Source of the DNA: a virus
Virus record (IMG/VR): IMGVR_UViG_3300017770_000160
Coordinates: 1-24,359 of that record
Length of the DNA stretch: 24,359 nt
Direction: 5' to 3' (one strand)
Under the pieces are notes generated by a model. That model saw only the letters and a list, made by a program, of their open reading frames with translations. It had not been told where the DNA came from and ran no database searches. Position numbers and translations under genes: made by a program. Shown piece after piece: positions 8,658 through 24,359 of the stretch. Position 1 is the stretch's first letter. Each line of letters opens with the position of its first letter.

Positions 8658-9252
8658 CATAATGGCATTAGATATTGAAACGGGTAACTACTCTTGGGAA
8701 ATAGGGGGATGGGATAAGACCGCATCTTTCGAGCCTACAGTAGTGGCTACATGGAACGGAGAGGATGGAAACATCTACTGTAACAAATCATTGTCTGTAG
8801 ATGCCACAGTAAAGGCACTACACCCTCGTACATTAGGTGATGACTTAGATGCACACGTCAAGAAGGGCGGTGTCATTATCGGTCATAACATCAAAGCATT
8901 CGACCTCCCTGTATTACGGGATGCATTGGACTGTTGGACAGCAGGTGATATGCTGAAAACAGAAAGCGTCATTGATACAAAGAACCTCGTCAACAAAGCG
9001 GCTATGACACAACAGAAAGTCATGACCAGCCTCAAAGACTTGGTTAAGCATACCTTAAGCGACAACAAACTTATGAATAGTGAGGATGCGCCTAAAGCAT
9101 GGAGGCAAGGGAAATATGATGAGGTGGCTAAGTATTGCTTAAGTGATGCTCAACTTACATATGACCTATATCAATTTGGTAAGAGCGAAGGCTACGTTCG
9201 TTCTCGTGCAGTAGACACGGGAGAATTAGTAGATATAGAAGTAGAATGGTGA
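8650..9252 (+). CDS. DEDDy 3'-5' exonuclease (RNase H-like, DnaQ/PolB-exo type)
   Basis: A 200-residue stand-alone exonuclease. Motifs: Exo I MALDIETG (D8, E10), Exo II GHNIKAFDLPVL (N80, D85), Exo III Y162-CLS-D166, all in canonical form and order. It resembles the proofreading domain of family B polymerases more than bacterial DnaQ. It removes 3' nucleotides and could proofread in trans or process ends. The ATG at 8650 is chosen because GGGTGA lies seven bases upstream; the GTG at 8641 is part of that site. It overlaps the ATPase stop by eight bases. It is notable because PolB at 61-2463 already has its own exonuclease domain, with a weaker Exo II. Confidence 0.9.
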   Translation: MSDIMALDIETGNYSWEIGGWDKTASFEPTVVATWNGEDGNIYCNKSLSVDATVKALHPRTLGDDLDAHVKKGGVIIGHNIKAFDLPVLRDALDCWTAGDMLKTESVIDTKNLVNKAAMTQQKVMTSLKDLVKHTLSDNKLMNSEDAPKAWRQGKYDEVAKYCLSDAQLTYDLYQFGKSEGYVRSRAVDTGELVDIEVEW

Positions 9253-9257
9253 ACACT

Positions 9258-10778
9258 ATGAAAAAAGAACAGGAACAAGGAAGAACAAATGCACAACAAA
9301 TGAACATACGTGCGGCACGTACAATTGCTGATACCGTGAAGTCCACGTTAGGACCAATGGGTATGGATAAGATGCTTGTAGACGGGCATGGGAACGTTAT
9401 CGTAACAAACGATGGCGCAACCATTCTACGTGAAGTAGACGTATCACATCCCGGTGGTAAGATGATTGCAGAAGTAGCAAAGACACAAGAGAACCTATGC
9501 TACGATGGTACAACAAGTACTGTCGTATTAGCAGGTGCGTTACTGGGTAACACAGAATCTCTCTTCGCTCGTGGTCTACACCCTAACGTCATCTGTCGTG
9601 GGTATCACGAGGCATCTCTCATGGCGACTACATACCTAAGTAATGAGGTTGCTATGTTAGCCGAAGGAAGAGAAGAATACCTTAAGATTGCACGTACTGC
9701 GATTACTGGTAAGACTCTTGAGAACGCTCTCGACAAGGTATCAGAACTATGTGTGTCTGCTGTCGAACAAGCAGGAAGTGCTGAATCAGTACGTGTGGTA
9801 TCGTTCCCCGGTGGTTCGCTTGATGACTCATACCTCTTTGGTGGTGTGATTGTCAACAAGGATTTCGTACTTGAAGTAGAGGATGAAAAGGAAACCTATC
9901 GTCATTTCATGCTTATCAACACAGGACTTGATGTTGAAAAGAGTGAAGAGAATGTACAGGTACAGATTGATGCTTCGTCTTATTCATCATACAAATCCGC
10001 AGGTAAGGCTGATTTGATTTCAAATGCAAAGAGTATCGTAGAAGCATTCGACGGCAAGCATGGTATTGTCTTTGTACGTGATAGCGTAAACGACCACGTA
10101 TGCGCCTTCCTCAAGAAGCATGGAATTATGGCTGTACGTCGTACTCCTGAATCAGTTATACGTGCGCTAAAACGTGCTACTGATAGCGTCATCTTCCAAA
10201 CAGTTGATGACATCTCATCATACACTTCAACCGACATTACAAGAGAGAAGCACAATGATGTATGGCATTTGTTTGTTTCTAATAATACTGGTGAAAGTAA
10301 GGAAGCAACACTCGTACTTCGTGGTGCTACTTCGCACACACTTGAAGAAGTCGAACGTGGGTTTGATGACGCTCTTGGAGTTGTATCGTTGGTCATGGCT
10401 AATGATAGGATTGTTGTTGGTGCAGGTAACGCATACGCTCGTATGGCTGTCTATCTACGCAACCATGCGGCTCAAGTGGGTGGTCGAGCACAGATGGCTA
10501 TCGAAGCCTTTGCAGATGCTTTAGAGAGCATTCCTATGACCATTGCAGAAAATGCTGGTCAAGACCCTCTCGATACGATTCTTGAAATGAGACATCAATT
10601 GATGGAAGGTAAGACTTCTATTGGTCCTGATGTCGAGAACGGTGGTGTATGCGACGTTCTTGCGCTCGGTGTTATCGAGCCTGTAGAACTTGTACGACAA
10701 GCGGTATTGAGTGCGGCGGAAGTTACGAATGCTATCCTACGCATTGATGACATCATTGCACGTCGAGGCATGGAATAG
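9258..10778 (+). CDS. Group II chaperonin (thermosome subunit), divergent
   Basis: A 506-residue HSP60-family chaperonin of archaeal/eukaryotic type, which folds proteins inside a double ring using ATP. Seen: GPMGMDKMLVD and TNDGATIL near the N-terminus, NLCYDGTTST (D83) for the usual GDGTT, an apical region beginning with FPGGSLDDSYLFGGV, FDDALGVV (D371), VGAGNAYAR (G388-N391) where cellular subunits have PGGG, IAENAGQDPLD and ILRIDDIIA near the end. Catalytic Asp residues are kept, but two glycine-rich nucleotide contacts differ. It is about 35-40 residues shorter than typical thermosomes and lacks the GGM-rich tail. Start at 9258 follows GGTGA; an ATG at 9246 was rejected. It may fold virion proteins such as the giant protein on the minus strand, or join host rings. 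Confidence 0.95.
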   Translation: MKKEQEQGRTNAQQMNIRAARTIADTVKSTLGPMGMDKMLVDGHGNVIVTNDGATILREVDVSHPGGKMIAEVAKTQENLCYDGTTSTVVLAGALLGNTESLFARGLHPNVICRGYHEASLMATTYLSNEVAMLAEGREEYLKIARTAITGKTLENALDKVSELCVSAVEQAGSAESVRVVSFPGGSLDDSYLFGGVIVNKDFVLEVEDEKETYRHFMLINTGLDVEKSEENVQVQIDASSYSSYKSAGKADLISNAKSIVEAFDGKHGIVFVRDSVNDHVCAFLKKHGIMAVRRTPESVIRALKRATDSVIFQTVDDISSYTSTDITREKHNDVWHLFVSNNTGESKEATLVLRGATSHTLEEVERGFDDALGVVSLVMANDRIVVGAGNAYARMAVYLRNHAAQVGGRAQMAIEAFADALESIPMTIAENAGQDPLDTILEMRHQLMEGKTSIGPDVENGGVCDVLALGVIEPVELVRQAVLSAAEVTNAILRIDDIIARRGME

Positions 10779-11011: not shown

Positions 11012-11176
11012 TTACCAACTGTTTATGACGGCTTGTGTAGGCGGTGTACCCCAACTGCTCGGCCATTCATTGAGGTTGATAGTGCCGTCAATAAAATACA
11101 GACCGTGTTCAGCATACTCGAATTGAGTAAAACCTGCGTTGTGCATTCCCGTTGTCATCTCTTGTGGTGTCATCAT
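11012..11176 (-). CDS. Small protein downstream of fibre (54 aa)
   Basis: A 54-residue ORF whose ATG overlaps the fibre stop (ATGA), the same arrangement as other genes of this arm. It contains HNAGFTQFEYAEHGLYFIDG and ends WGTPPTQAVINSW; it is aromatic and soluble. No family is recognised. The position directly after a tail-fibre gene suggests a fibre chaperone or small tail component, which is inference. Translational coupling to the fibre gene is likely. The rest of 10950-11172, between the two convergent arms, is filled by this and the 24-residue peptide. I see no hairpin or T-run that would make a clear terminator. Confidence 0.6.
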   Translation of the reverse strand: MMTPQEMTTGMHNAGFTQFEYAEHGLYFIDGTINLNEWPSSWGTPPTQAVINSW

Positions 11177-13485
11177 AGCATCTCCGTAATTTGAAAGTAA
11201 GTGAGAGTATTGAGAGCCGCCCCTATGCTTGTACTGCTTACCACATGAGCGAAGTGAGCAACCTTATCACCCGCATCCAATTTGATTACTGCTGATATTT
11301 GCGTATCTGCGCCGTTAGCACTTCCTCTACGAAGCCGAATAGCATATCCTCCACCACTTGCGGGTGATACTTGGATGTTAGACATAGACCATGAAACGGA
11401 AGTCGTCGTGTAATAACTACACGCTACGAGATAATAGCCATCTCTCGGAGCAGTATATTCATTGTTGGTTGTACTAAAGTCAGAGCCTACATTCCACAAT
11501 GTTAAATCATGTGTTATCTTTGTCGCCCCTGAACTGTAACTCATATTCCCTGAAAGATAGGCGAAGAACTTCGATGCCTTAGCGTTGATGGCCGTTATTG
11601 CCGTGGTATTACCATTCGCTAATAGTGTGTTACCTGTAATAGCAGGGTCGTTAGCGGCCTGTGCCATAGCGTCTGTGTACTCCGTTGCGCCGTCAGCGAC
11701 GTTCAGCATGGTTCGCACATCTGCGGGGGATATTTCTTCAATAATACCTGCACCTGCGCTGTCTCTTCCAAGTAGTTTATTCGTCGCTGATACATCTTGC
11801 ATCTTAGCATAAGTAACTGCATCAGCCGCAATAGTAGCCGCTACTGAACCTGAACCGCTTGCTGTAACATCACCTGTTAGTGCTGTTATACCCGCCGCCG
11901 CTGTTGCCGCCCATTTAACACCTGATGCTTCTGAACTATCTGCTGTTAGAACATGGTTGTTAGTGCCGACGCTAAGTATAGTTGCATCACCTGAACCATC
12001 TCCTACTACTATCTGTCCTTTGGTTCCCAAATCGCTGTGCATAATTGCACCTGCGGCGTTGACATTGGTTGCGTCTGTAACGTCAGCACTTGCTTCGATT
12101 GCATCTAACTTCGTTTTGTCTCCGTTAGCAAATGCCCCTTCAGATGGAGGTTGTTGTGCGCTGTCAGCCTTTGCTCCTTGTGCGGCAGTAGCATATGCGG
12201 AGGCCGCAGTAGTAGCGGCAGTTCCAAGACTAAGATGCGTTGAAAGCGCACTTGCATCAATACCAAGAGCGATAGTCCCACTTGTTGTAATGGGAGAACC
12301 TGAATCCACTTGTATACCATCTGAACCGCTTACCGCAACAGAAGTTACTGTACCTGTTCCAAGCACTTCCACTTCATTCCACGAAGAGTTAGTTTTATCG
12401 TAAACATATTGTTTTACTGTTTGCCCAAACGCACCTGCTGAATTGAAATTTACTGTGTTACTCCCATGAAGATTTTTTATAGTTATCAAATAACCATCGG
12501 GAAAAGTACCACTCGGTGATACTGTACAAGTACCACCGGGTGTTAGAATAAGATAATTTTCATCAGCCGAAGTTACTGTTATACTTGTAGCAGTAGAAGA
12601 TAATACTGAATCAAATACACGTCGAGTGAAACGGTTTCCACTTGAATCCTTCCCTGTGTAGAAAAGGACTTGATTACCTTCACTATCGTATGATTGCCAC
12701 ATAGCACCAAAACGACTTCCGGACATAGAACCTGCTTCACTTCCTCCATGTAAATTATCAAGGTCCGTATGTGAATCAATAGCATTAGTAGCCGCTACTG
12801 CCCCTGATGTAACAGGTGAAAAGTAAATTGGAGAAGGTCTGATGAATACTCTCTTATCATTTATTTCAGTTACTTTAATGTTTAAATCACCGGAACCTGA
12901 TGAGTATACACATCGTAATGTGGCGAGGACTACTGATTGTTTTACAGCCAATGAAGATGAAGGAAAATTAAGAAACGCCGAAGGTGCAAGGGGGTATGAT
13001 GCACCAATAGTAACAGGGGAACCCATTTCCCACCCTATTGAGTTATTTGCATTGTCTGAATTAACATAGATAACAACTATTGCTTCCTTCCCTGATGTCA
13101 ATGCAGAAGGGGAACCAGCCTTATGTGCGCTTGTACTGATAAGGTCAATGTCTATGTTTGTAGAACTTCCAAAAGCATACATTACACCATCTAATACTGC
13201 GTAACCACCTTGTAGATTTACACGGAATAATGAAGAAGAACCAACACCATTTACTCGACCTGCTAAGTTGAGAGGATTGTTCCTATCACCATCTGCCTTT
13301 GCAGTATCTTCTTCAAGTAATATTCCATTCCCATGTATACCTTCAAAGGCATTTGTAAGCGTAGGACTGATGATGTGCTCACCATCAAACAAGCCATCTT
13401 CCGCTGTAGGTGTGGACACACTTGTATGTGTCGTTAACGTCATGTTCGCCTTTGTATGCCCCGATAATGGATTTCCTGTCATCAT
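11173..13485 (-). CDS. Tail fibre protein with C1q-like C-terminal domain
   Basis: A 770-residue virion protein. The N-terminal third is a beta-rich region found in tail proteins. The middle has typical fibre shaft sequence rich in Ala, Gly, Ser and Thr, e.g. GTVTSVAVSGSDGIQVDSG, TTSGTIALGID, ATILSVGTNNHVLTADS and ITALTGDVTASGSG. The last 130 residues or so (about 11176-11575) read as a C1q/TNF-like jelly roll (FFAYLSGNMSYSS; NEYTAPRDGYYLVACSYY; LDAGDKVAHFAHV), a common trimeric receptor-binding tip. It probably recognises the host surface. Start ATG overlaps the previous stop (ATGA) after GAGGTGG; a second ATG follows at once. Expected trimer. The fibre role is strong; the receptor is unknown. 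Confidence 0.85.
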   Translation of the reverse strand: MMTGNPLSGHTKANMTLTTHTSVSTPTAEDGLFDGEHIISPTLTNAFEGIHGNGILLEEDTAKADGDRNNPLNLAGRVNGVGSSSLFRVNLQGGYAVLDGVMYAFGSSTNIDIDLISTSAHKAGSPSALTSGKEAIVVIYVNSDNANNSIGWEMGSPVTIGASYPLAPSAFLNFPSSSLAVKQSVVLATLRCVYSSGSGDLNIKVTEINDKRVFIRPSPIYFSPVTSGAVAATNAIDSHTDLDNLHGGSEAGSMSGSRFGAMWQSYDSEGNQVLFYTGKDSSGNRFTRRVFDSVLSSTATSITVTSADENYLILTPGGTCTVSPSGTFPDGYLITIKNLHGSNTVNFNSAGAFGQTVKQYVYDKTNSSWNEVEVLGTGTVTSVAVSGSDGIQVDSGSPITTSGTIALGIDASALSTHLSLGTAATTAASAYATAAQGAKADSAQQPPSEGAFANGDKTKLDAIEASADVTDATNVNAAGAIMHSDLGTKGQIVVGDGSGDATILSVGTNNHVLTADSSEASGVKWAATAAAGITALTGDVTASGSGSVAATIAADAVTYAKMQDVSATNKLLGRDSAGAGIIEEISPADVRTMLNVADGATEYTDAMAQAANDPAITGNTLLANGNTTAITAINAKASKFFAYLSGNMSYSSGATKITHDLTLWNVGSDFSTTNNEYTAPRDGYYLVACSYYTTTSVSWSMSNIQVSPASGGGYAIRLRRGSANGADTQISAVIKLDAGDKVAHFAHVVSSTSIGAALNTLTYFQITEML

Positions 13486-13826
13486 GCCACCTCAATTGTA
13501 ATTTCAATTTTCACTTCATTAGAATTATTTTTAGTAATTGGTTTAATGGTGAATCTACTTACAGGAGTAAAACTTGTCGCACCCCTTGTTTGAATATATA
13601 CTTCCTTTATGGATTCAGTAAAGGCTTCTGTATGTGGTAATAATGCTTCTACGAGTAATGTGGAATCATCTACTATGGTAACCGTAGGCGTGAGTGTGAT
13701 GGCAGGTCGCCCTGCTGAACCATCGTCGCTGGTCGCTGGTGTACCGTCAAATCCTAAGATAACCTCGTTTATGTTATCTCTTATCGTTTCGATAAGTAGA
13801 CGGCGTATATGGTTACTTACTGGAAT
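13482..13826 (-). CDS. Tail/baseplate-associated protein with non-canonical start (114 aa)
   Basis: A frame open from 13862 down to 13482 fills the gap between hub and fibre genes. It contains no ATG, GTG or TTG before its last few residues. The best start is ATT at 13824-13826, eight bases after a perfect AGGAGG (13835-13840), giving 114 residues. It contains VSNHIRRLLIETIRDNINEV, LGFDGTPATSDDGSAGRP and a beta-rich C-terminal half ending VKIEITIEVA. Its stop overlaps the fibre start (ATGA), as expected for a real gene. The alternative is a -1 slip on the A6 run at 13840-13845 at the end of the hub gene, fusing both products. No family is named; a baseplate or fibre-connector role is inferred from position. 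Confidence 0.6.
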   Translation of the reverse strand: MPVSNHIRRLLIETIRDNINEVILGFDGTPATSDDGSAGRPAITLTPTVTIVDDSTLLVEALLPHTEAFTESIKEVYIQTRGATSFTPVSRFTIKPITKNNSNEVKIEITIEVA

Positions 13827-15226
13827 CCTCCAACCCTCCTTTTTTGTACTACAGTCATACCCTTATTTCCTCCTACGGGTTGACCACTTCCACCAATTGT
13901 ACCTCTTGTTGTTCCACCAATAAGAATTGCGGTATTCATAACGTGATTTTCAACTATTTTACTTTCTATCTTAAGTTCTATTTTACCAAACATAGCAAGA
14001 TTAACATCAACTATTTGTATATTATTATTAGGATTTGATTTATCCGCTTCTACTGTAACACCTTCATTGATACCTTGTAGTACACCTTCCAATCCTACTT
14101 CAACATTCATTAATGAAAAGTCGCTTGTATTACCAAACGGGAAGTGTCGTACTTCTGTAACAATTTTATTTTTACCATCATGTTGTACAGTCATACCGGG
14201 TCTTACATTCAACGAATTATAGTTTCCAGTTATTTGCATTTTTCCTTTCATCAATGATTGTCCACGAAGAATCTTTCTTCCCACTCTTCGTGCGCTCGAA
14301 ATCGTTCTTACTGTATGGTCAACAAAGGGTGCAGGTGATTCACGTATTTCTTCTGTCTGTGATTCAGCATCATCAACAGATACTATGATTAAATCATTTA
14401 ACGCTAATGGTAAACCTTGTACTGTTACTCTATTCGGAGAATCGTCTATTGGATTTTCTTGTATCGAAATAGGTGCTTTATTTGTAATGTTTACATCGTT
14501 TTCACTAAACGTCAATGGTATGTATAACAAGTTCCCAAAGGTGTCTAACAATATCATTCTTCCATCTTGCCTTGCTAAGTATCTAAGCGATGTCATAAGG
14601 TTTGTATTAAAGAAATCGTGTGCAATAAATCGTGTACTGTGATGTCTATCACTTGATACTGTATTTTCTGGTCTACTGATATTCACACTTGTTACTCCAG
14701 TACTAACCGATTCTCCTAATTTTATGGCTAAGTCTGTTGTTCTTAATCCAATATCGAGAGGCTGTCCCATTTTCACGGCATCATGAGTAAATCCTATGTC
14801 ATCAAGAGTACGACTTTTCATATTCTGTAAATGCCCAAAAACTCCTATTGTACTATCTTCTATAGATTTTAGAACTAAACGTTCGGAAGGGCGCAGTTCA
14901 TTGTATAGAAGTGTTGGAACGTTGCTTGAAGATAAACTTTCACCATTAAAATATGGCTTACCGGTGTACTCATGACCGGGTGTTTGAGCGTGTGTAATCT
15001 GTACTCCTGATTCACCCTCAACAATCTGATATGATGATTGAGGCATAACCTGTAGTGTGCGGGTATTGTTTTTTTCTACAGTAATTTTTGGCTTCGATGA
15101 AGTTTGTACGCTTACACGAGCATGATGAACAGCATTGTCAACAAACACCGGCTTACGCACATGACTCATGACTTCACTAACATCGGTGTTAAACCGACCA
15201 GTAGTAGTATTTTTGATAACAGTCAT
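13817..15226 (-). CDS. Tail hub / baseplate-like structural protein
   Basis: A 469-residue protein with features of tail-hub proteins (gp27/late control D-like in general layout). An N-terminal beta domain is followed by a segment with LLDTFGNLLYIPLTF, RVTVQGLPLALNDLIIVSVDD, and ARRVGRKILRGQSLMKGKMQITGNYNSLNVRPGMTVQHDG, the pattern of hub domains that form the ring at the tail tip. The C-terminus is Gly-rich (GGTTRGTIGGSGQPVGG) and ends KRRVGGFQ. Start ATG at 15226 overlaps the previous stop (TGATG); a GTG at 15238 is possible but would overlap more. The assignment is by general pattern and context, so moderate. The end overlaps the next ORF by ten bases. Confidence 0.6.
   Translation of the reverse strand: MTVIKNTTTGRFNTDVSEVMSHVRKPVFVDNAVHHARVSVQTSSKPKITVEKNNTRTLQVMPQSSYQIVEGESGVQITHAQTPGHEYTGKPYFNGESLSSSNVPTLLYNELRPSERLVLKSIEDSTIGVFGHLQNMKSRTLDDIGFTHDAVKMGQPLDIGLRTTDLAIKLGESVSTGVTSVNISRPENTVSSDRHHSTRFIAHDFFNTNLMTSLRYLARQDGRMILLDTFGNLLYIPLTFSENDVNITNKAPISIQENPIDDSPNRVTVQGLPLALNDLIIVSVDDAESQTEEIRESPAPFVDHTVRTISSARRVGRKILRGQSLMKGKMQITGNYNSLNVRPGMTVQHDGKNKIVTEVRHFPFGNTSDFSLMNVEVGLEGVLQGINEGVTVEADKSNPNNNIQIVDVNLAMFGKIELKIESKIVENHVMNTAILIGGTTRGTIGGSGQPVGGNKGMTVVQKRRVGGFQ
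13835..13840 (-). promoter_or_regulatory. Perfect AGGAGG ribosome-binding site before an ATT start
   Basis: AGGAGG on the minus strand lies eight bases before ATT at 13826 and is followed by a second GGAGG (13827-13831). It falls inside the last codons of the hub gene, where such a strong site is not needed for that gene. This supports independent translation of the 114-residue ORF. Immediately upstream is a run of six A (13840-13845). Confidence 0.55.
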
Positions 15227-15564
15227 CAGCAGTTCCACCGTTTAAGGGATGCCCCTTTAGGTGTGAGTTTGCCTTTCTTACTTGTAGGTCCTTTCATTCC
15301 ACCCATGCGAGCACAAAACGATTTACGACGCTTTGCTTTCTTAGAGCCGGGTTTCAGTTTACTGGGTTTAGTAGTAACTGGAGGTTTTAAATTAGCACCA
15401 GACTCTCTTTTAGCGGCGGCTCGACCTTTAGCGTTCAAGCCACCTTTTCGATGATGTTTGTTAGGGTTGTAACCGTGAAACGGTTTACTCTTCTTTTTTG
15501 CTTTCATTAATGCAAATGCATTTTCCATAGGAGTGCAACAATTACAAAAGTCGTAATCCATCAT
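15226..15564 (-). CDS. Small basic DUF6321-like protein (112 aa)
   Basis: A 112-residue, very basic protein. The N-terminus has a Cys cluster (FCNCCTP). The core reads GGLNAKGRAAAKRESGANLK, then KAKRRKSFCARMGGMKGP, and ends SLKRWNC. This resembles a family of small basic proteins widespread in marine phages, which I place by memory as DUF6321-like. Function unknown; strong positive charge suggests contact with DNA or an acidic virion protein. It starts at an ATG overlapping the stop of the giant gene (ATGA), with GGTGAT upstream. Located between the giant structural protein and the hub, so probably made late. Confidence 0.75.
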   Translation of the reverse strand: MMDYDFCNCCTPMENAFALMKAKKKSKPFHGYNPNKHHRKGGLNAKGRAAAKRESGANLKPPVTTKPSKLKPGSKKAKRRKSFCARMGGMKGPTSKKGKLTPKGASLKRWNC

Positions 15565-18500
15565 GAGCCATCACCTGTGTGGTCTGATGTGTTGTAGGTT
15601 ACATCTCCTTTATGTCCTTTAGGGTGCAGGGCTTGTGAGAATCGTGGGAGAACGGTAAAGTCCATGCGCTTTACCTTTTCATCACTATCAATACGAGAAC
15701 GCCTTCTCGGTGCATCAGAACGATAATGTTGCAATGTATTTTCACTTATGACAAGTCTTGTAACTTCGTTATTGAGTAATGAAGAATCGAATGACGTATC
15801 ACTTATTCCAATAATCTTCGGTCCTTTGCTTACTGGTACACTTTCGTTTGATGATACGTTCATTACATAGGCTGGTGCATATGGAGGATTGGTATCAGGA
15901 TTAGTTGCTCGGATATAATATCCTGAACTTGCTCTACCGTTACTGGTTTCATACAAGAATAGACCGTACTTTCCTCCACCAGTAGCGGAGAAGTAGTTTG
16001 CACCATATTGCGGAGATGATGAGTGTAGTGCATTGTTAGGTCTGAAAACTTCTACGTGTTGCTTGTCAAGTAGTCTTACGGTTCTTAGCATAAACGTAAT
16101 ACTTTTATCTGTAAAATTAGTCTGTGCGCTACTAACGAAAACATTTGTTTCATATGGATTTGCTGTTTTATTTGACCCATCTATACCGCCCCAATCTTTG
16201 TCGCTTACAGGAGACAAGTAATTACGAGTCTCGGCCAAATATGTACCACCTAAAGGATTGAAGTTGGAAGTGTGTGTATAACGCATGACACCACCTTGTG
16301 GCTGTCCAGCGAAGGTCAAACTTGTCAAATCGTAGTTACCTAATGTTTGCGAACCAGCGGTCAATCCACCTTGCAGAACAACACGCTGTCCCACGTTTCT
16401 GTCTGTGTGTAGACTATGTGCTTCGGTATTGATTGCCATCATGTTGTCGTCCACACCTTCTATGTTTTCGCCGTCAATACCTATACGTGGACTTGAACGA
16501 CTCACAGCATCCTTGTGTGGTGTCTCACCGCTGAAATCTTCTACTCTATCACTTGCTACGGCTTCTGGTTTTAACAGTCCATTTTCATCTATACCGAGTC
16601 GAGCACTTATTCCACGAGGAACTTCATTAGGTTGCAGTACATCATTTCTTGCTCGTATCAAACCTTCTGATGTATTCGGTTCAGCGGTATTGTGTGACAA
16701 CACTACACCTGTTGTATGATACGGTTCATCAACATCAGTAATCAAATCTTCATTAAATGCAGTTGGGTATCGAACACCTCGCCCGTTACCCATGTCTCCT
16801 ATTCTTTGAGCATGAGTTGGCATGAATACATCTACTAAATTATTAGCATCGTTGTTGTTAACATTGTTAAGACGACCACCAAATCTTGGTACTTTTAATC
16901 CGTCTGTTACATTTGAATCTGCTAAATCAGTTATATTTTTCAAGTTAACAAGTGGTTGACCATTATTGTATAGACGTTGATATGGAGTTCTATCACTCAC
17001 TCTATCGTACTCATAAGCATCACTACTATCCCATGCGGGTCTGATACCAAACCCACGTACAGGATAACGGCGTATATCTTCACCACGAGTATTACCCCAC
17101 CAATCAACGAGATAGTAATTTACAGCACTATGAATTGAATCAATACCCTTTCCAGTAGCATCGCCCCACCAATCTCTTACTACTGTAGATGCATTACGTA
17201 ATGTTCGTACAGGGCATCCAAATGCTCTTGTCATACGCATACCGTTTCCATAACGCACTTGCCATTCTGGTTTATCGACTCCGAGCATACCGCTAAAGTT
17301 AGTTTGTCGTTCCATAACACCAACGTATGTGTTAGGGTAAGTAGGAGAAGCACCTCCTGTCGGTGCAGAATCACCTCCACCGTATGTCCATGTTTGAGTT
17401 TCTTGCTGTACAAGAGGACCGTGTTGATAACCAGCAATTGTGTTAGAACCAGTAATACTCGCTTCTCGATATGCCCTCATTCCATACAAAGCCCATTGAG
17501 GTTTGTTGTATGGTTGACGTAGAGAGAAGCGGTAACCGAATGGCCGTGTTCGTGTTTTTACAGGAGTAAAAGTAAGAGTTGAATTTGTATTAGAGGCAGT
17601 AGCATTAGCACTCAATTCAAATGTAGTAGCATTCGTGATAGATAATACGGTTGCACCACTTGCTATACCTGTACCACTTACTCCCATACCTACTGCTAAC
17701 TTAGTAGTAGAATCCATTGTAACAGTAGCATCTGTGTTTGTAGTATCACAAGTAGCATCTGTAAAGTTATCATAAACTGATTTTGTTATTCCTAATGATA
17801 CAGCGTATGAACCATCATCGTCGTGGTCAACCCACACAGGACCATCAGAAGTATATTCTAATGGATAATCCCACGAGGCTGATACATATCCATACCCATC
17901 GAGTCTACTCGTTAAAGGACCACCACGGCTTCCACAAGGCCAATAGTGATTCAGTAATGGCGCACCGCTTGATTGCGTTGCAGTATCTGTAGAACCATCA
18001 GCACCAGTTTTAACATTTGAATCAATAGTTGTGTGCGCCGCACTTCGTTCTAATGTAAATACAGTTGCAAGAATTGATTGAGCACCGCCGCCGTTAGGAT
18101 TAGTGTACGTAATTGTATGCGACCCTGTTATGGCAGTAATCGAAAAAGTTTCATCGTCAATGTTTATCAAATCTGATACTACAAGTTGAGGTGCAGAAGT
18201 AGTGGTAATTTGAGATAATATTTGATTTGCAGTAAGAGAAACCGTACCGCTAAATGCGTTCGTTGTTCCATTACCTATTACAGTCATAGGGGCAGTAGGA
18301 GTACCTGCACCTGATGGTGCTTTAGTAAGTATAGTACTGGGTTTAGTCGGTGTAGCGATATTGAATGCGAAAGGACCTAAACTTGCATAGTACGTTGCGT
18401 CGTGGTAATGTACAGTTTCAAAATGTTCGGGCATACTGTTCAATGGTTTTGACAGTACGGCTCTATCAGTAAGTGGATTCAACCATGTTCTTGAAGAATC

Positions 18501-21500
18501 AGAATAGAATGTATGAGGGCGACCAAGATTAGGATGCCATAGACACAAATACGCATCACCCATGTGCAGACTATTGGTATCTCTTGAACCATTGAATGCT
18601 TGATTATCTGCTAATAATGAATGCGTGATAACACTTGTACGAGTATCATTGAAAATTGTACCAGCAGGTCTAAAGTCATAAGCACGAGTCAATCGAATTT
18701 TTGTTCCCACAGTTAAATTATTTGTAAAATTACTCGATGCAGTAATAGTAAAACGGTATGGTTTGTTCATGTAAGAAGCGTCATTACCACTTCTTTCTGT
18801 ATATGTGTGAGTTCTTCTTACACCGTCAGCATCCGTATATTCTAATTTCATACCGTAATGAGGCACTTTAGGGAATCCTCTTGCATCATCAACAGTTATT
18901 ACAGTAACAGGGGAATTTATTTTACTCACTACAGTACATACAGGTGCAAGACTGATGTTCTCAAGGACATTAGAATAAAGGTCAGGATAGTTGGAAGGAT
19001 AACCACCAAGCGTTAATTGGCATCCTATACTTCCAGCACTCGCTCTCAAGAACTCATAGTAATTGTCGAGTCTATGAATGGACAAATGACGTATTCCATC
19101 TGCTGATGAATCTTCGGGTCCTGATTCATGTACAATAGACCACCACGGAATGTTACTTGTTATTCCCGGTGTTGCGTATGCAAACATACTACGATTGTAA
19201 GGTAAACTTCGACGTGTGAATGCTGGTGATTCTGATGATTGCACACCCAACGGATTGTATGACATAAGCGGTGGAATGTTTGTAAATTGGCTTCCGTGGT
19301 CAGGGTCATGGTCTATCATTAATTCGTTAATGAATAATTCACACCCTCTTACATCAGCCATTATTGCTTCGGCAAGTACAAGTCCCAAACCACCTGTACC
19401 TGCATCGGGTTCTCGTATACCTACAACTAATGCAACTTGCTGGCTGGTCAGTTCGTTTACCTTATCCCCTGTCTCATATGGTGCTTTTGTAGCAACGCTA
19501 TGATTTTGATGGAAGCCTAACAGTTGAGATTTGTGTATGTTTGGTTGAATAACAATTTGATAAGCACCGACTTCACTTGGGTCAGGGAAGTGATGCTTCA
19601 AGGTGTACGTAGCGGCGGCTTCCAATACGATTGTATGACCACCCTTTGAGTTTACAACACCTGCTTGACCCTTTGATGCAAGAACTCCATAACCATCATA
19701 CTTGACCTTAGTTTCAAACATTAACGTGAACGCACCACCGTGTATATCACTCGGTCCACTTGGAGTAGCGGTCATAGTTCCTATAGTGATACTTGGGTCA
19801 TATCCTGTTATTTGGTCAGTAGTAGAAGAAGGAATTGTAGAAACATCTAACGCTGTATCATTGATGAGTGTCTTTTCTGTATTAGCAACAAAGGCTGAAC
19901 GTTCTGCTCTATGTAGCCCGTACAGTCCTTGATAAGCAGGATGCGCCCAATGACCGGGTAACATTGCCTGTGTAGCATTAACAAAGTGATGACCCATTCG
20001 TGGAATAGCCATAGGTGTGAGAATTGGTTTTTTGTATGTCTCGTAAGGTGTTTCCGTTCCTCCACTGGATAAATACAATGAATGAGCCATATCAGGACTG
20101 TTCCCACTTACTTCTGCGTGGTCACGCATTCTTCTTGCGGCAAAGAAGCGATTGCTTCCAGCAGGTACATAATAAGAAGGAACGACCTTACAAGCAGTAA
20201 TTGAACTTGCCACCATAGAAGTAAAGTTTGCATCTCCTTTACATCCTGTAAACGTACTTCCTGAAATGTTAGTAAATGAGGCCACACCGCTTTCTCCAGT
20301 AGTTGGATTGTGTAATCTTAGATACTTCTTTACCAATGCACCCCCAACCCAATCAGCATTACCGAATCCACCAACAAACAAATTTGCATTAACAGCAGTA
20401 TTAACAGTTAAAGTAGTTCCAACAAACGATACACCTGTTAAATCATTATACACAACACCGTTAGCGTGTGAGTATGTTGTTGGGTAACGGTGCGTGTGAG
20501 AGTTACCGTTCTTTGTTACGTGGAAGTATAATGAACGGTCATGAAGTTCGTATGAGGTCTTTAGTGGTGCATTGTTTGTTGAAGATTTCCATCCTTTTCT
20601 TGTCATTTCAGGGAACAATTCTTCTGATAAATTTTGGCTAATATGGTCGTACTCATGGTCGCTAAACGTAGGACCTAATCGTGGTCCGTCTGTTGTATCA
20701 GTAAATATACCATCTATGTCCGAATCTATTCCGGGTCTTAGCATACCACCTGTACCCATAGTTTCTGTTTGATAGGCTTGTAATCTATCAAAACCACTAC
20801 GGATAATTATGTTTCCGGGTATAGAATCAGGATTGGGTAATTGTATTTTCAAATTGGGTTCGACACCACTTCCCGCTTCCGCTGGTGCTAACCCTTCTGC
20901 GGTTCTATCTGATACCTGTTTAAAGGAACGAACAATGGTTCCAAACGGTGAACCACCTTCTATTGAGTGTACTTGTCCTGTATCATCTAAAACTTCAATA
21001 CTTTCAAACTGTATTTCTTCATTTGGTATATCTAAAATATCTCGCAATCTATTTGGATGCAATTGCGCTAATTGTGGATGACTTATTTCCTGTGCTTGAA
21101 TAATTGGGAACATAGCATTATTCGTTGTTTCAAAGGTGAATCTATTATTTCCAAGTAGTTTTTCACCAGTTAAGTATGCGTTAGTACCGTCGCTACTCAC
21201 TCTTGTAACAAATGGTACTGCACCTAATCCACGAGCATTTACCGCTGGAAGTGAAAGATTACCACCATCCATGCGCTTCCATACTACATTTTCAACTGAA
21301 AAATTGCGAGCAGAAGAATATTCATTTGCTTTGTATGCATTTATATCTCCCCACCAAAAGTCTCGACCATAACTGTATCTTGATGTAACGTTTGTAGCAC
21401 CAGCCGACCCATCAGAAGGAAGAGAAGCCGCAAGATAGTACTCTAATCTCAAGTTTCTTCTATCACCAGTGCCGGGACTTTCATCTAAATCTAAGAACAA

Positions 21501-24359
21501 ATCTCCAGTTTCAGCAAAACACGGTTCTGCATTTGCAAGTAAAGTATCGTTAGCAACAGGTGCTACTGTTATACCGCCTTCAACGTATGAATCTAATGCC
21601 GTACCAGCAAAGGGAAGTGGTGTACCATCAGAAGAAGTAGCAATCAATGCTTCTACGTTAGGACCAGCATTCGCAGGTGCAGTAAAACGCTCACTATTGT
21701 GTATACGTTCATCCCATTGAACAGTACCAGCGAATTTTATTGCATCTGTAGGGTCTTGAGTATCAACATTAGTTTTTGAAACTACAGTCAACCAATCTCC
21801 AGTAGCAGTAATCCCATCACGGTCATGCTTGGCAACCAAAGGAAATTCACTTTCATACGAAATTACAACAAATGCCCGACTGTATACTCCCTGTGGTTGA
21901 TGCAAATTTTTGATTACATCAAAGGATGTACTGTCATTATCATCATGATAAATAGGTTGACCGCTATTCCCACCGTCATTATATCGTGAAGCATAATCTG
22001 TGACATTCCCTGTGTAGTAACTATCAGTATGTGCTAATCCTAAATTCCATGTATACGGGGTGGCAACACCTGCGTTAGTACCACCTACACCATTCAATAT
22101 TCGAGAGGCTTCGGGTGACCATTTAATCGGTTTTGTATGAGGTAAATGTCCATAGGCTGTCATACATGAATTACTTGAACCATATGGACTGAAACCGAGT
22201 TTAGCATGCCAAGCACCAAGACCTGCACCGTAACCTTCTGTACCAACCTTTAGCGAGTTAAGGTATGAGTAACGCTCACCAGCCCATCCGACAGCACCTA
22301 CAGGTCGTGTACGGTCTATAGCATCGACAATACCACTAAAATGCACTTGTGTCATATGGTCCCTTGCTGTTTCGTTTTCATTATTGAAACGGTGAACACC
22401 CGCTTTTGACCATACATATAATTTTGAAGGCGCACTTGATAAATCTGGTATATCATCAGCCGCCGCATAACTTCCTGCCAATTTATCTTCGTATACTTTG
22501 ACATCTTCAAATACAGGCAGTTTACTGTGTTTATTGGGTGCTAAAGCAAACACAACACCCCAAGCACCGCTTTGATATATTACTTCACGACTGTGATAAG
22601 GCGCATAACACGGTATGTCTCCTGCGCCTGATACACCAGTTGTACCACCTTCACTTGTTCTTAACCACCCACACGCTGGTATTTGTTCAAGTATAGCCTG
22701 TGTACCACCTGACATAGTTGCTCTAACTTCAACATATGAATTTGTTAAATCAAAATCTCCGCTGTTTGCCGCTGGAACTGTATACGTAGCAAAATCTAAT
22801 TCTATCCAACCGTATCTATCTTGACGCATGGCATTCCCCATAGATGGTGCAAATGTACCACCCATTGCTTTTATTGCGCTCTTTCCGGGGAACTCATTCA
22901 TAGCCTGTCCAAGTACAGTAGCAAGTTCTTCACCGTTTTGACATCGAGTAGCATCGACTACAACTAATTCTGGTTCTACTTCCGATAAAGTAACATCAGA
23001 ACTTCCTGTTAAAATAGCCTTAGCCATTAATCCTGATACTCTAAACGCTGTAGGGTGAACTATGTTTGTTCCTCTTTTAATTGCATAATTACTCTTAGGG
23101 TGTGAAGGGTTGAAAGCCATTTGATTATCTAACCATGAGCCACCGGGATGATAACCACCGTCCATATGGAATGTCATATCAGCACCCATTGCTATACTGT
23201 AATACATTGCACCTACGTGCTTGTAGGGATGTGCCTTTTTCATATCGGCAATATTGTTAGCATTCACAGTTCCAATATAATTAAAATGTTCACCATAATG
23301 ATAACCGTGGTCTGGTCTTTGCATAAGACCTACACCTGAACCTCCTGCATCACCTATGTTTGGAATACCTTGTGGTGGTGACCAATTCCAACCATAAAGC
23401 CAATGGAAACGATTTCTTGCATTTTGATGTGCTAATGTAGGAGGTGAATATTGACCTGCCTCATTTTTAATATCGTTAGGCAAGTTCAATCCATACGGTA
23501 CTTTACTCCATGTGTTTCCTGTAGTAACTACATAGCCGGGATGCGGTTGATTATCTGAATTTGCTGATGCTTGTTCAGTAAACGGGAAAGCCTGTCCGGG
23601 TCCGTATATTGCAAACATTGTATGTGTTTCTGTATGCGCTCTTACAGTATCACCACTTGATGGGTCATATCTTGCATTTGGATTTGCTACTCGTAAAATT
23701 ACAGGTACAGGTCTTTGTAAAATAGTACCAGCCGTATATCTTGCTTTTACGGGGGCTGGTAATGCCGAGTTAACAGGGAAACTTCCGTTATCTAAATCAG
23801 TAGTAAGCCTGTTTGCACTATTGAAGAAAGGTGAATTAATACTTGCTCTATGCTGATTTAAAAGTGCTGTAGCGGGGAAGAAAGACAAAATTGCATTACA
23901 ATCTACAATAGCGAAAGAAGTTGAAATTTCGTTGGCGTTTTGTATACCAGCAGTACCAGTAGGACCTGTAGAATATGGATGAGTATAGAAATCTGAATAA
24001 TCATTTTCAGTACCATCATTCACATCCATCACCACACCGCTAAATCCACCACCAAAGTAAAGTGGTACGCTATGGTCATTGCTGTCTCTGCCGCCCTTGA
24101 AGTAAATTAGAGGTTCAGAATCCACAGAACCATATGAGCGATAACCACCAATTTGTTGTTCAGCAAATCTCTGGAGTACGTGTTCTTGATTTGTTACGTT
24201 TTTAGCACCAATATTTGATACCCAATCATCGTTTGAGAACAAATCATTCCATGTAACTTCTGTTAAAGAATTTGAACCATTCTTAGATTCTAATAGTGAA
24301 AATTGTTTTTCTTGGTAATAGTATCGTAAACGCTCACCATAAGATGGTTTCTTTGCTAA
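15561..24359 (-). CDS. Giant virion structural protein, at least 2932 aa (5' end outside window)
   Basis: One frame with no stop from the TGA at 15561 to the right edge. The TTG at 24242 is not its start, since coding continues upstream in frame (visible segments KKPSYGERLRYYYQEKQ and LTEVTWNDLFSNDDW) with no ATG before the edge. The protein is rich in Gly, Ser, Thr, Tyr, His and Asn, with no membrane segment seen and few Cys. It is modular and beta-rich: a region near 19510-19750 resembles a LamG-like fold (GGAFTLMFETKVKYDGYG), 18790-18945 carries VITVDDARGFPKVPHYGMKL, and 17565-17765 carries an Ig-like cassette. Likely a large tail or appendage protein for host contact. The exact role is inferred from neighbours and composition. 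No enzymatic motif recognised. Confidence 0.8.
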   Translation of the reverse strand, partial: LAKKPSYGERLRYYYQEKQFSLLESKNGSNSLTEVTWNDLFSNDDWVSNIGAKNVTNQEHVLQRFAEQQIGGYRSYGSVDSEPLIYFKGGRDSNDHSVPLYFGGGFSGVVMDVNDGTENDYSDFYTHPYSTGPTGTAGIQNANEISTSFAIVDCNAILSFFPATALLNQHRASINSPFFNSANRLTTDLDNGSFPVNSALPAPVKARYTAGTILQRPVPVILRVANPNARYDPSSGDTVRAHTETHTMFAIYGPGQAFPFTEQASANSDNQPHPGYVVTTGNTWSKVPYGLNLPNDIKNEAGQYSPPTLAHQNARNRFHWLYGWNWSPPQGIPNIGDAGGSGVGLMQRPDHGYHYGEHFNYIGTVNANNIADMKKAHPYKHVGAMYYSIAMGADMTFHMDGGYHPGGSWLDNQMAFNPSHPKSNYAIKRGTNIVHPTAFRVSGLMAKAILTGSSDVTLSEVEPELVVVDATRCQNGEELATVLGQAMNEFPGKSAIKAMGGTFAPSMGNAMRQDRYGWIELDFATYTVPAANSGDFDLTNSYVEVRATMSGGTQAILEQIPACGWLRTSEGGTTGVSGAGDIPCYAPYHSREVIYQSGAWGVVFALAPNKHSKLPVFEDVKVYEDKLAGSYAAADDIPDLSSAPSKLYVWSKAGVHRFNNENETARDHMTQVHFSGIVDAIDRTRPVGAVGWAGERYSYLNSLKVGTEGYGAGLGAWHAKLGFSPYGSSNSCMTAYGHLPHTKPIKWSPEASRILNGVGGTNAGVATPYTWNLGLAHTDSYYTGNVTDYASRYNDGGNSGQPIYHDDNDSTSFDVIKNLHQPQGVYSRAFVVISYESEFPLVAKHDRDGITATGDWLTVVSKTNVDTQDPTDAIKFAGTVQWDERIHNSERFTAPANAGPNVEALIATSSDGTPLPFAGTALDSYVEGGITVAPVANDTLLANAEPCFAETGDLFLDLDESPGTGDRRNLRLEYYLAASLPSDGSAGATNVTSRYSYGRDFWWGDINAYKANEYSSARNFSVENVVWKRMDGGNLSLPAVNARGLGAVPFVTRVSSDGTNAYLTGEKLLGNNRFTFETTNNAMFPIIQAQEISHPQLAQLHPNRLRDILDIPNEEIQFESIEVLDDTGQVHSIEGGSPFGTIVRSFKQVSDRTAEGLAPAEAGSGVEPNLKIQLPNPDSIPGNIIIRSGFDRLQAYQTETMGTGGMLRPGIDSDIDGIFTDTTDGPRLGPTFSDHEYDHISQNLSEELFPEMTRKGWKSSTNNAPLKTSYELHDRSLYFHVTKNGNSHTHRYPTTYSHANGVVYNDLTGVSFVGTTLTVNTAVNANLFVGGFGNADWVGGALVKKYLRLHNPTTGESGVASFTNISGSTFTGCKGDANFTSMVASSITACKVVPSYYVPAGSNRFFAARRMRDHAEVSGNSPDMAHSLYLSSGGTETPYETYKKPILTPMAIPRMGHHFVNATQAMLPGHWAHPAYQGLYGLHRAERSAFVANTEKTLINDTALDVSTIPSSTTDQITGYDPSITIGTMTATPSGPSDIHGGAFTLMFETKVKYDGYGVLASKGQAGVVNSKGGHTIVLEAAATYTLKHHFPDPSEVGAYQIVIQPNIHKSQLLGFHQNHSVATKAPYETGDKVNELTSQQVALVVGIREPDAGTGGLGLVLAEAIMADVRGCELFINELMIDHDPDHGSQFTNIPPLMSYNPLGVQSSESPAFTRRSLPYNRSMFAYATPGITSNIPWWSIVHESGPEDSSADGIRHLSIHRLDNYYEFLRASAGSIGCQLTLGGYPSNYPDLYSNVLENISLAPVCTVVSKINSPVTVITVDDARGFPKVPHYGMKLEYTDADGVRRTHTYTERSGNDASYMNKPYRFTITASSNFTNNLTVGTKIRLTRAYDFRPAGTIFNDTRTSVITHSLLADNQAFNGSRDTNSLHMGDAYLCLWHPNLGRPHTFYSDSSRTWLNPLTDRAVLSKPLNSMPEHFETVHYHDATYYASLGPFAFNIATPTKPSTILTKAPSGAGTPTAPMTVIGNGTTNAFSGTVSLTANQILSQITTTSAPQLVVSDLINIDDETFSITAITGSHTITYTNPNGGGAQSILATVFTLERSAAHTTIDSNVKTGADGSTDTATQSSGAPLLNHYWPCGSRGGPLTSRLDGYGYVSASWDYPLEYTSDGPVWVDHDDDGSYAVSLGITKSVYDNFTDATCDTTNTDATVTMDSTTKLAVGMGVSGTGIASGATVLSITNATTFELSANATASNTNSTLTFTPVKTRTRPFGYRFSLRQPYNKPQWALYGMRAYREASITGSNTIAGYQHGPLVQQETQTWTYGGGDSAPTGGASPTYPNTYVGVMERQTNFSGMLGVDKPEWQVRYGNGMRMTRAFGCPVRTLRNASTVVRDWWGDATGKGIDSIHSAVNYYLVDWWGNTRGEDIRRYPVRGFGIRPAWDSSDAYEYDRVSDRTPYQRLYNNGQPLVNLKNITDLADSNVTDGLKVPRFGGRLNNVNNNDANNLVDVFMPTHAQRIGDMGNGRGVRYPTAFNEDLITDVDEPYHTTGVVLSHNTAEPNTSEGLIRARNDVLQPNEVPRGISARLGIDENGLLKPEAVASDRVEDFSGETPHKDAVSRSSPRIGIDGENIEGVDDNMMAINTEAHSLHTDRNVGQRVVLQGGLTAGSQTLGNYDLTSLTFAGQPQGGVMRYTHTSNFNPLGGTYLAETRNYLSPVSDKDWGGIDGSNKTANPYETNVFVSSAQTNFTDKSITFMLRTVRLLDKQHVEVFRPNNALHSSSPQYGANYFSATGGGKYGLFLYETSNGRASSGYYIRATNPDTNPPYAPAYVMNVSSNESVPVSKGPKIIGISDTSFDSSLLNNEVTRLVISENTLQHYRSDAPRRRSRIDSDEKVKRMDFTVLPRFSQALHPKGHKGDVTYNTSDHTGDGS
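17565..17765 (-). other. Ig-like/beta cassette inside the giant structural protein
   Basis: About 65 residues containing TTKLAVGMGVSGTGIASGAT and VLSITNATTFELSANATASN. This matches, by eye, a short beta cassette seen in many phage tail and fibre proteins (LxVGMxVSGTGIxxGTxVxSI). Such cassettes are often inserted or exchanged between virion genes. It lies inside the large frame, not a separate gene. Confidence 0.55.

Follow-up and report, generated by a model that had tools for sequence, protein, structure and literature searches.

A 114-codon gene of the tail module, on the minus strand of the viral DNA analysed here (24,359 nucleotides of IMG/VR record IMGVR_UViG_3300017770_000160, hereafter "the window"), is very probably translated from an AUU codon at position 13826, which is served by a strong Shine-Dalgarno (SD) site and probably helped by coupling to translation of the gene upstream. 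AUU starts are known but rare; what would be new is their recurrent natural exchange with AUG in a single overlapping gene of what appears to be an archaeal virus.

The gene and its neighbours

The features that matter for this reading are listed by their positions in the window.

13482..13826, minus strand: 114-codon gene with the proposed AUU start (start ATT 13826-13824, stop TGA 13484-13482)
13824..13826, minus strand: ATT start codon, aligned with ATG in relatives
13835..13840, minus strand: Shine-Dalgarno site AGGAGG, read directly, with 8 nt between it and ATT
13827..13831, minus strand: second SD-like motif, GGAGG, read directly; it abuts ATT and is too near to serve it
13840..13845, minus strand: A6 run, shared by the window and L001, its near-copy, and absent from the clade's other ATT relatives
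13817..15226, minus strand: upstream gene of 469 aa (the "hub" of the initial annotation), overlapping the 114-codon gene by 10 nt with its last codons
13817-13819, minus strand: TAA stop of the upstream gene, which is read in frame +1 with respect to the 114-codon gene
11173..13485, minus strand: downstream gene of 770 aa, fibre-like, whose ATG overlaps the TGA stop of the 114-codon gene
13482-13485, minus strand: ATGA overlap of the 114-codon gene and the downstream gene, read directly

The initial annotation had described a stop-free frame that bridges a hub and a fibre gene, lacks a normal start codon, ends in an ATGA overlap, lies −1 relative to the hub frame and has a perfect AGGAGG ahead of ATT 13826. 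Direct reading bears out each of these points, places AGGAGG at 13835-13840 and finds all of the coordinates correct. The minus-strand frame from 13862 to 13482 runs for 126 codons without a stop, a length expected by chance with a probability of about 1.6e-4 at the local composition. Counted from ATT 13826, the first ATG, GTG or TTG of the gene is a GTG at codon 105, so that standard gene callers miss the gene in this virus, as had been predicted; more broadly, callers restricted to ATG, GTG and TTG lose or shorten this conserved gene of the structural module in roughly one allele in four. For the upstream gene, the most likely start is the ATG at 15226 (MTVIKNTTTG, as in relatives), and not the GTG at 15238 picked by the ORF lister.

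Homology outweighs the chance estimate. A first search of IMG/VR returned homologues of the 114 residues in 72 contigs at 66-99% identity, and because these encode the same protein in the same place, the frame at 13482-13826 is, judged by its relatives, a real conserved gene and not a product of chance. Later IMG/VR searches with distant members raised the collection to 70 distinct alleles in total; 66 of them are exactly 114 codons long, two have 115 and two are clipped by contig ends. Values of dN/dS between allele pairs (0.04-0.12) indicate strong purifying selection, and relatives keep the same gene neighbours: the 469-residue gene lies upstream, and the gene downstream overlaps. In DNA, the closest relatives that start with ATG share 88-90% identity with the window.

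From the position of its gene, the 114-residue product may be a small protein of the baseplate or of tail-fibre attachment. It matched no Pfam or PHROG family above the cut-off, and its PDB match to a phage tail protein (8bl4, E 0.87) is weak. AlphaFold2 predicts, with medium confidence (pLDDT 72), a helix at the N-terminus and beta strands after it; comparison of this model with the PDB was uninformative, and its matches among viral proteins, to unannotated ones of tailed viruses, were weak, the best being A0A516MG31 (TM 0.58) and another a protein of HGTV-1. As for the labels that the neighbours had been given, "fibre" is partly upheld by a weak C1q-like C-terminus, below the Pfam cut-off, in the downstream 770-residue protein, which also has a DUF5907 repeat. 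The identity of the upstream 469-aa protein as a hub was not confirmed (model pLDDT 36).

The start-codon column

Across the 70 distinct alleles, the codon aligned with the ATT of the window reads ATG in 51 and ATT in 19, and none has a different codon there, such as GTG or TTG. In the ATT alleles, as in most of the ATG alleles that overlap, an SD site stands 7-8 nt before the start (7 nt before ATT in the groups of L018 and L027 versus 8 nt in the window). The ATT and the AGGAGG site, which the initial annotation had seen in one sequence, thus both recur in relatives, the latter as an SD at the equivalent place.

A maximum-likelihood tree built without the start codon requires five changes between ATG and ATT, all five of them forced by well-supported branches alone. 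With ATG at the root five changes are needed and with ATT eight; ATG is ancestral, and AUU was gained at least three times (three gains and two reversions, up to five gains). The ATT alleles fall into three groups.

ATT group 1: the window, L001 and L008-L011, with L002-L007 carrying ATG within the group
ATT group 2: L018, L020, L021, L025, L026 and L375, with L059 carrying ATG within the group
ATT group 3: L027-L038

Between the window and L008, ATT has been retained across a dS above 1, which supports its role as a start, since an Ile codon without such a role would be free to drift; among Ile codons, ATT makes up only 47% in long ORFs and 40% inside the 114-codon gene. Codon 3 (window 13818-13820) also divides the alleles, being GTN in 19/19 with ATT versus 20/51 with ATG. 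It is ATN in 24 of the 51 ATG-start alleles, and an ATT start and an Ile codon 3 are never found together.

The initial annotation had offered either an AUU start or a −1 slip on the A6 run. The former is favoured by the column of 51 ATG and 19 ATT codons with an SD in place; the latter, a programmed −1 frameshift or transcriptional slippage that would fuse the upstream protein to the 114-residue frame, is highly improbable. Although the run is in the right phase, lies near the end of the upstream gene and is found in both the window and L001, it is absent from L008-L011, whose ATT and gene are the same (CAACGAAGG there versus CAAAAAAGG in the window and L001). In most relatives the upstream gene occupies the +2 frame, from which a shift of another type would be required; in L002-L007 and the outgroups it terminates ahead of the start codon or at it (TAATG, as in the closest ATG relatives, or TGATG), leaving the 114-residue protein with an ATG of its own. 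Because the run is unconserved, the hub frame differs and these junctions occur, we take the upstream and 114-residue proteins to be separate, and the fusion of hub and bridging frame falls away; A6 was likewise rejected as a programmed −1 slippery site, no conserved in-phase site having been found across the relatives. Nor does an error of sequencing or assembly deserve more than a negligible probability, since ATT appears in 23 of 73 first-set sequences and in 19 distinct alleles overall, from many separate metagenomes and among sequences with many other differences. A miscounted A run that would join the frames, which had been named earlier as the observation to watch for, is excluded by independent contigs. 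A further candidate start is a different non-standard codon, for instance codon 3 (GTA, GTC or GTT), and here the excess of GTN beside ATT and the second GGAGG of the window, 6 nt before codon 3, count in favour. We nevertheless regard this as very unlikely: GTN is frequent beside ATG starts and in outgroups too, the sole SD of the other ATT lineages lies 7 nt before ATT and 13 nt before codon 3, and GTA, GTT and GTC are poor initiators.

Probable initiation at AUU and its precedents

For the AUU start, we propose that the codon at 13826 would be decoded by initiator Met-tRNA, giving a protein that should begin Met-Pro-Val-Ser, and that the strong SD 8 nt upstream would position the ribosome on it. 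Both the SD and the AUU are embedded in the final codons of the upstream gene, which ends at a stop 4 nt beyond the AUU, an arrangement in which terminating ribosomes could re-initiate. Such translational coupling would offset the weakness of the start codon, while AUU itself may lower or tune the dose of the protein.

Overlapping gene pairs of archaea and bacteria show termination-reinitiation that drops sharply with distance (PMC10666635). In every ATT allele, the upstream stop falls 4-8 nt past the start codon (an overlap of 10-14 nt); in ATG alleles it ranges from −7 to +11. The SD duplex has a median of −11.5 kcal/mol in ATT versus −9.5 kcal/mol in ATG alleles, and local folding is weaker in ATT than in ATG alleles, both comparisons being unadjusted for kinship; a stronger SD and weaker folding would both help a weak start codon. 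The ATG allele of L059 has an SD identical to that of its ATT neighbours. Because many ATG alleles share the same overlap and SD, coupling alone leaves the choice of AUU unexplained. In E. coli, AUU initiates at about 0.3% of the efficiency of AUG (Hecht et al. 2017, as cited in PMC10666635). The archaeal factor aIF1, too, disfavours non-canonical starts (PMC6237735), so that the proposed start presupposes a host in which AUU is used efficiently.

The cause of the AUU, as distinct from the site of the start, can be read in two ways. It is quite possible, if somewhat short of an even chance, that ATT is a tolerated near-neutral accident, in which coupling makes it matter little which start codon is used, and the bases free to change are dictated by the overlapping upstream frame. 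The overlap of 10-14 nt in all ATT alleles agrees with this, as do the +2 frame lineages, in which G to T at the third position of the start merely turns Ala into Ser near the upstream C-terminus and GTG would change an upstream Tyr into Cys. In the window lineage, however, GTG would be silent in an upstream Gly codon and yet is never found, and GTG and TTG are seen in 0 of 70 alleles though other genes of these viruses use both. The alternative, which we hold to be doubtful and offer tentatively, is that AUU is a selected, gene-specific setting: coupled to the upstream gene, it might fix the ratio of two tail proteins or tie synthesis of the small protein to aIF1 proofreading, hence the repeated moves between AUG and AUU and never to GUG or UUG.

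As to the AUU start as such, precedents are established in E. coli for infC (IF3) and pcnB, and the baseplate gene 26 of phage T4 has an internal AUU start. The gene described here would resemble infC and pcnB in having a gene-specific AUU start used with initiator tRNA; it differs in being a structural-module gene of an archaeal virus, with repeated switching to and from AUG, in a host domain that is without IF3. T4 gene 26 is alike in placing AUU in a gene for a tail part, but there it is an internal, secondary start in a bacterial phage gene. Autoregulation of the infC type, where the AUU serves feedback control by IF3 (Sacerdot et al. 1996, cited in PMC2268962), was considered and rejected, the product here being a conserved 114-aa tail-module protein without detected initiation-factor homology. 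In archaea, a likely ATT start has been proposed for the Asgard tubulin atubA (PMC13394414), likewise on the strength of homologues and of a plausibly spaced ribosome-binding site, but for a single cellular gene and without a comparison of AUG and AUU alleles. The coupled overlapping pairs of archaea share with our gene a short overlap and an SD inside the upstream gene; they differ in their canonical starts, ATT being mentioned there only as something that might account for −5 nt overlaps (PMC10666635).

AUU is not a general habit of these viruses. A survey of start columns in about 20 related contigs counted ATG 304 times, GTG 24, TTG 11, ATT 7 and ATC 2; all seven ATT entries belong to the 114-codon gene, and most of the other odd codons came from misplaced columns, where a standard start stood only a few codons away. 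Generally relaxed initiation was rejected on this basis, the start columns of other families in these contigs being ATG, GTG or TTG, and other ATT candidates (for example, component 81) were judged to be antisense or internal frames. A published reconstruction traced 61,358 ancestral AUG starts to 363 switches to GUG, 113 to UUG and one to AUU (PMC5622118), the last count being lowered by annotation bias, as AUU is under-called. Against these figures, a single viral gene that gained AUU three times or more, and GUG or UUG never, is unusual, and the natural series of paired AUG and AUU alleles offers a test of how archaeal ribosomes accept AUU.

A possible ATC start was seen in the portal gene of two contigs (L074:9311-9313 and L134:1992-1994), where GGAGGGATTGTAATCGCA overlaps the terminase stop TAA. 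The portal gene begins with ATG in most relatives, and these two have no standard start until codon 12; they are identical over 1,845 bases and so represent one population only.

The virus

The window is a 24-kb fragment, and related contigs reach 102 kb. On one strand it encodes PolB, a TCP-1/Cpn60 chaperonin, and PD-(D/E)XK and ERCC4 nucleases, with structural genes on the opposite strand. The Magrovirales, viruses of Poseidoniales whose gene order and pattern have been described (PMC12999244, PMC10768690), are recognized by a genome of about 90-110 kb, PolB, a chaperonin and two oppositely transcribed modules, and the gene content of the window together with the related contigs agrees with this description. 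We therefore assign it, by gene content and order, as a probable ocean archaeal virus of magrovirus type; magrovirus reference records gave no close match in the phage collection. Among GenBank phages, PolB and the portal protein (the latter from a related contig) are nearest to HCTV-5/HVTV-1, at 24% and 29% identity. With these tailed archaeal viruses, the Magrovirales and the Druskaviridae (HCTV-5, HVTV-1), the virus of the window shares the PolB/portal affinity, a chaperonin and the opposite directions of replication and morphogenesis genes; the difference lies in the 114-residue protein itself, for which no match was detected in GenBank phages or HCTV-5.

The chaperonin of the window (9246-10778, 510 aa) is of the TCP-1/Cpn60 type, and its only cellular matches in one scan of genome contigs were 35-38% identical, in Methanomicrobiaceae MAGs. 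On the minus strand, a frame that stays open for 2,932 codons or more (15561-24359) runs off the window and, from its place in the structural module, may encode a giant virion protein. Between it and the 469-aa gene, at 15226-15564, lies a gene for a small Lys/Arg-rich protein with DUF6321, a domain that PHROGs also place at the C-terminus of much longer phage proteins.
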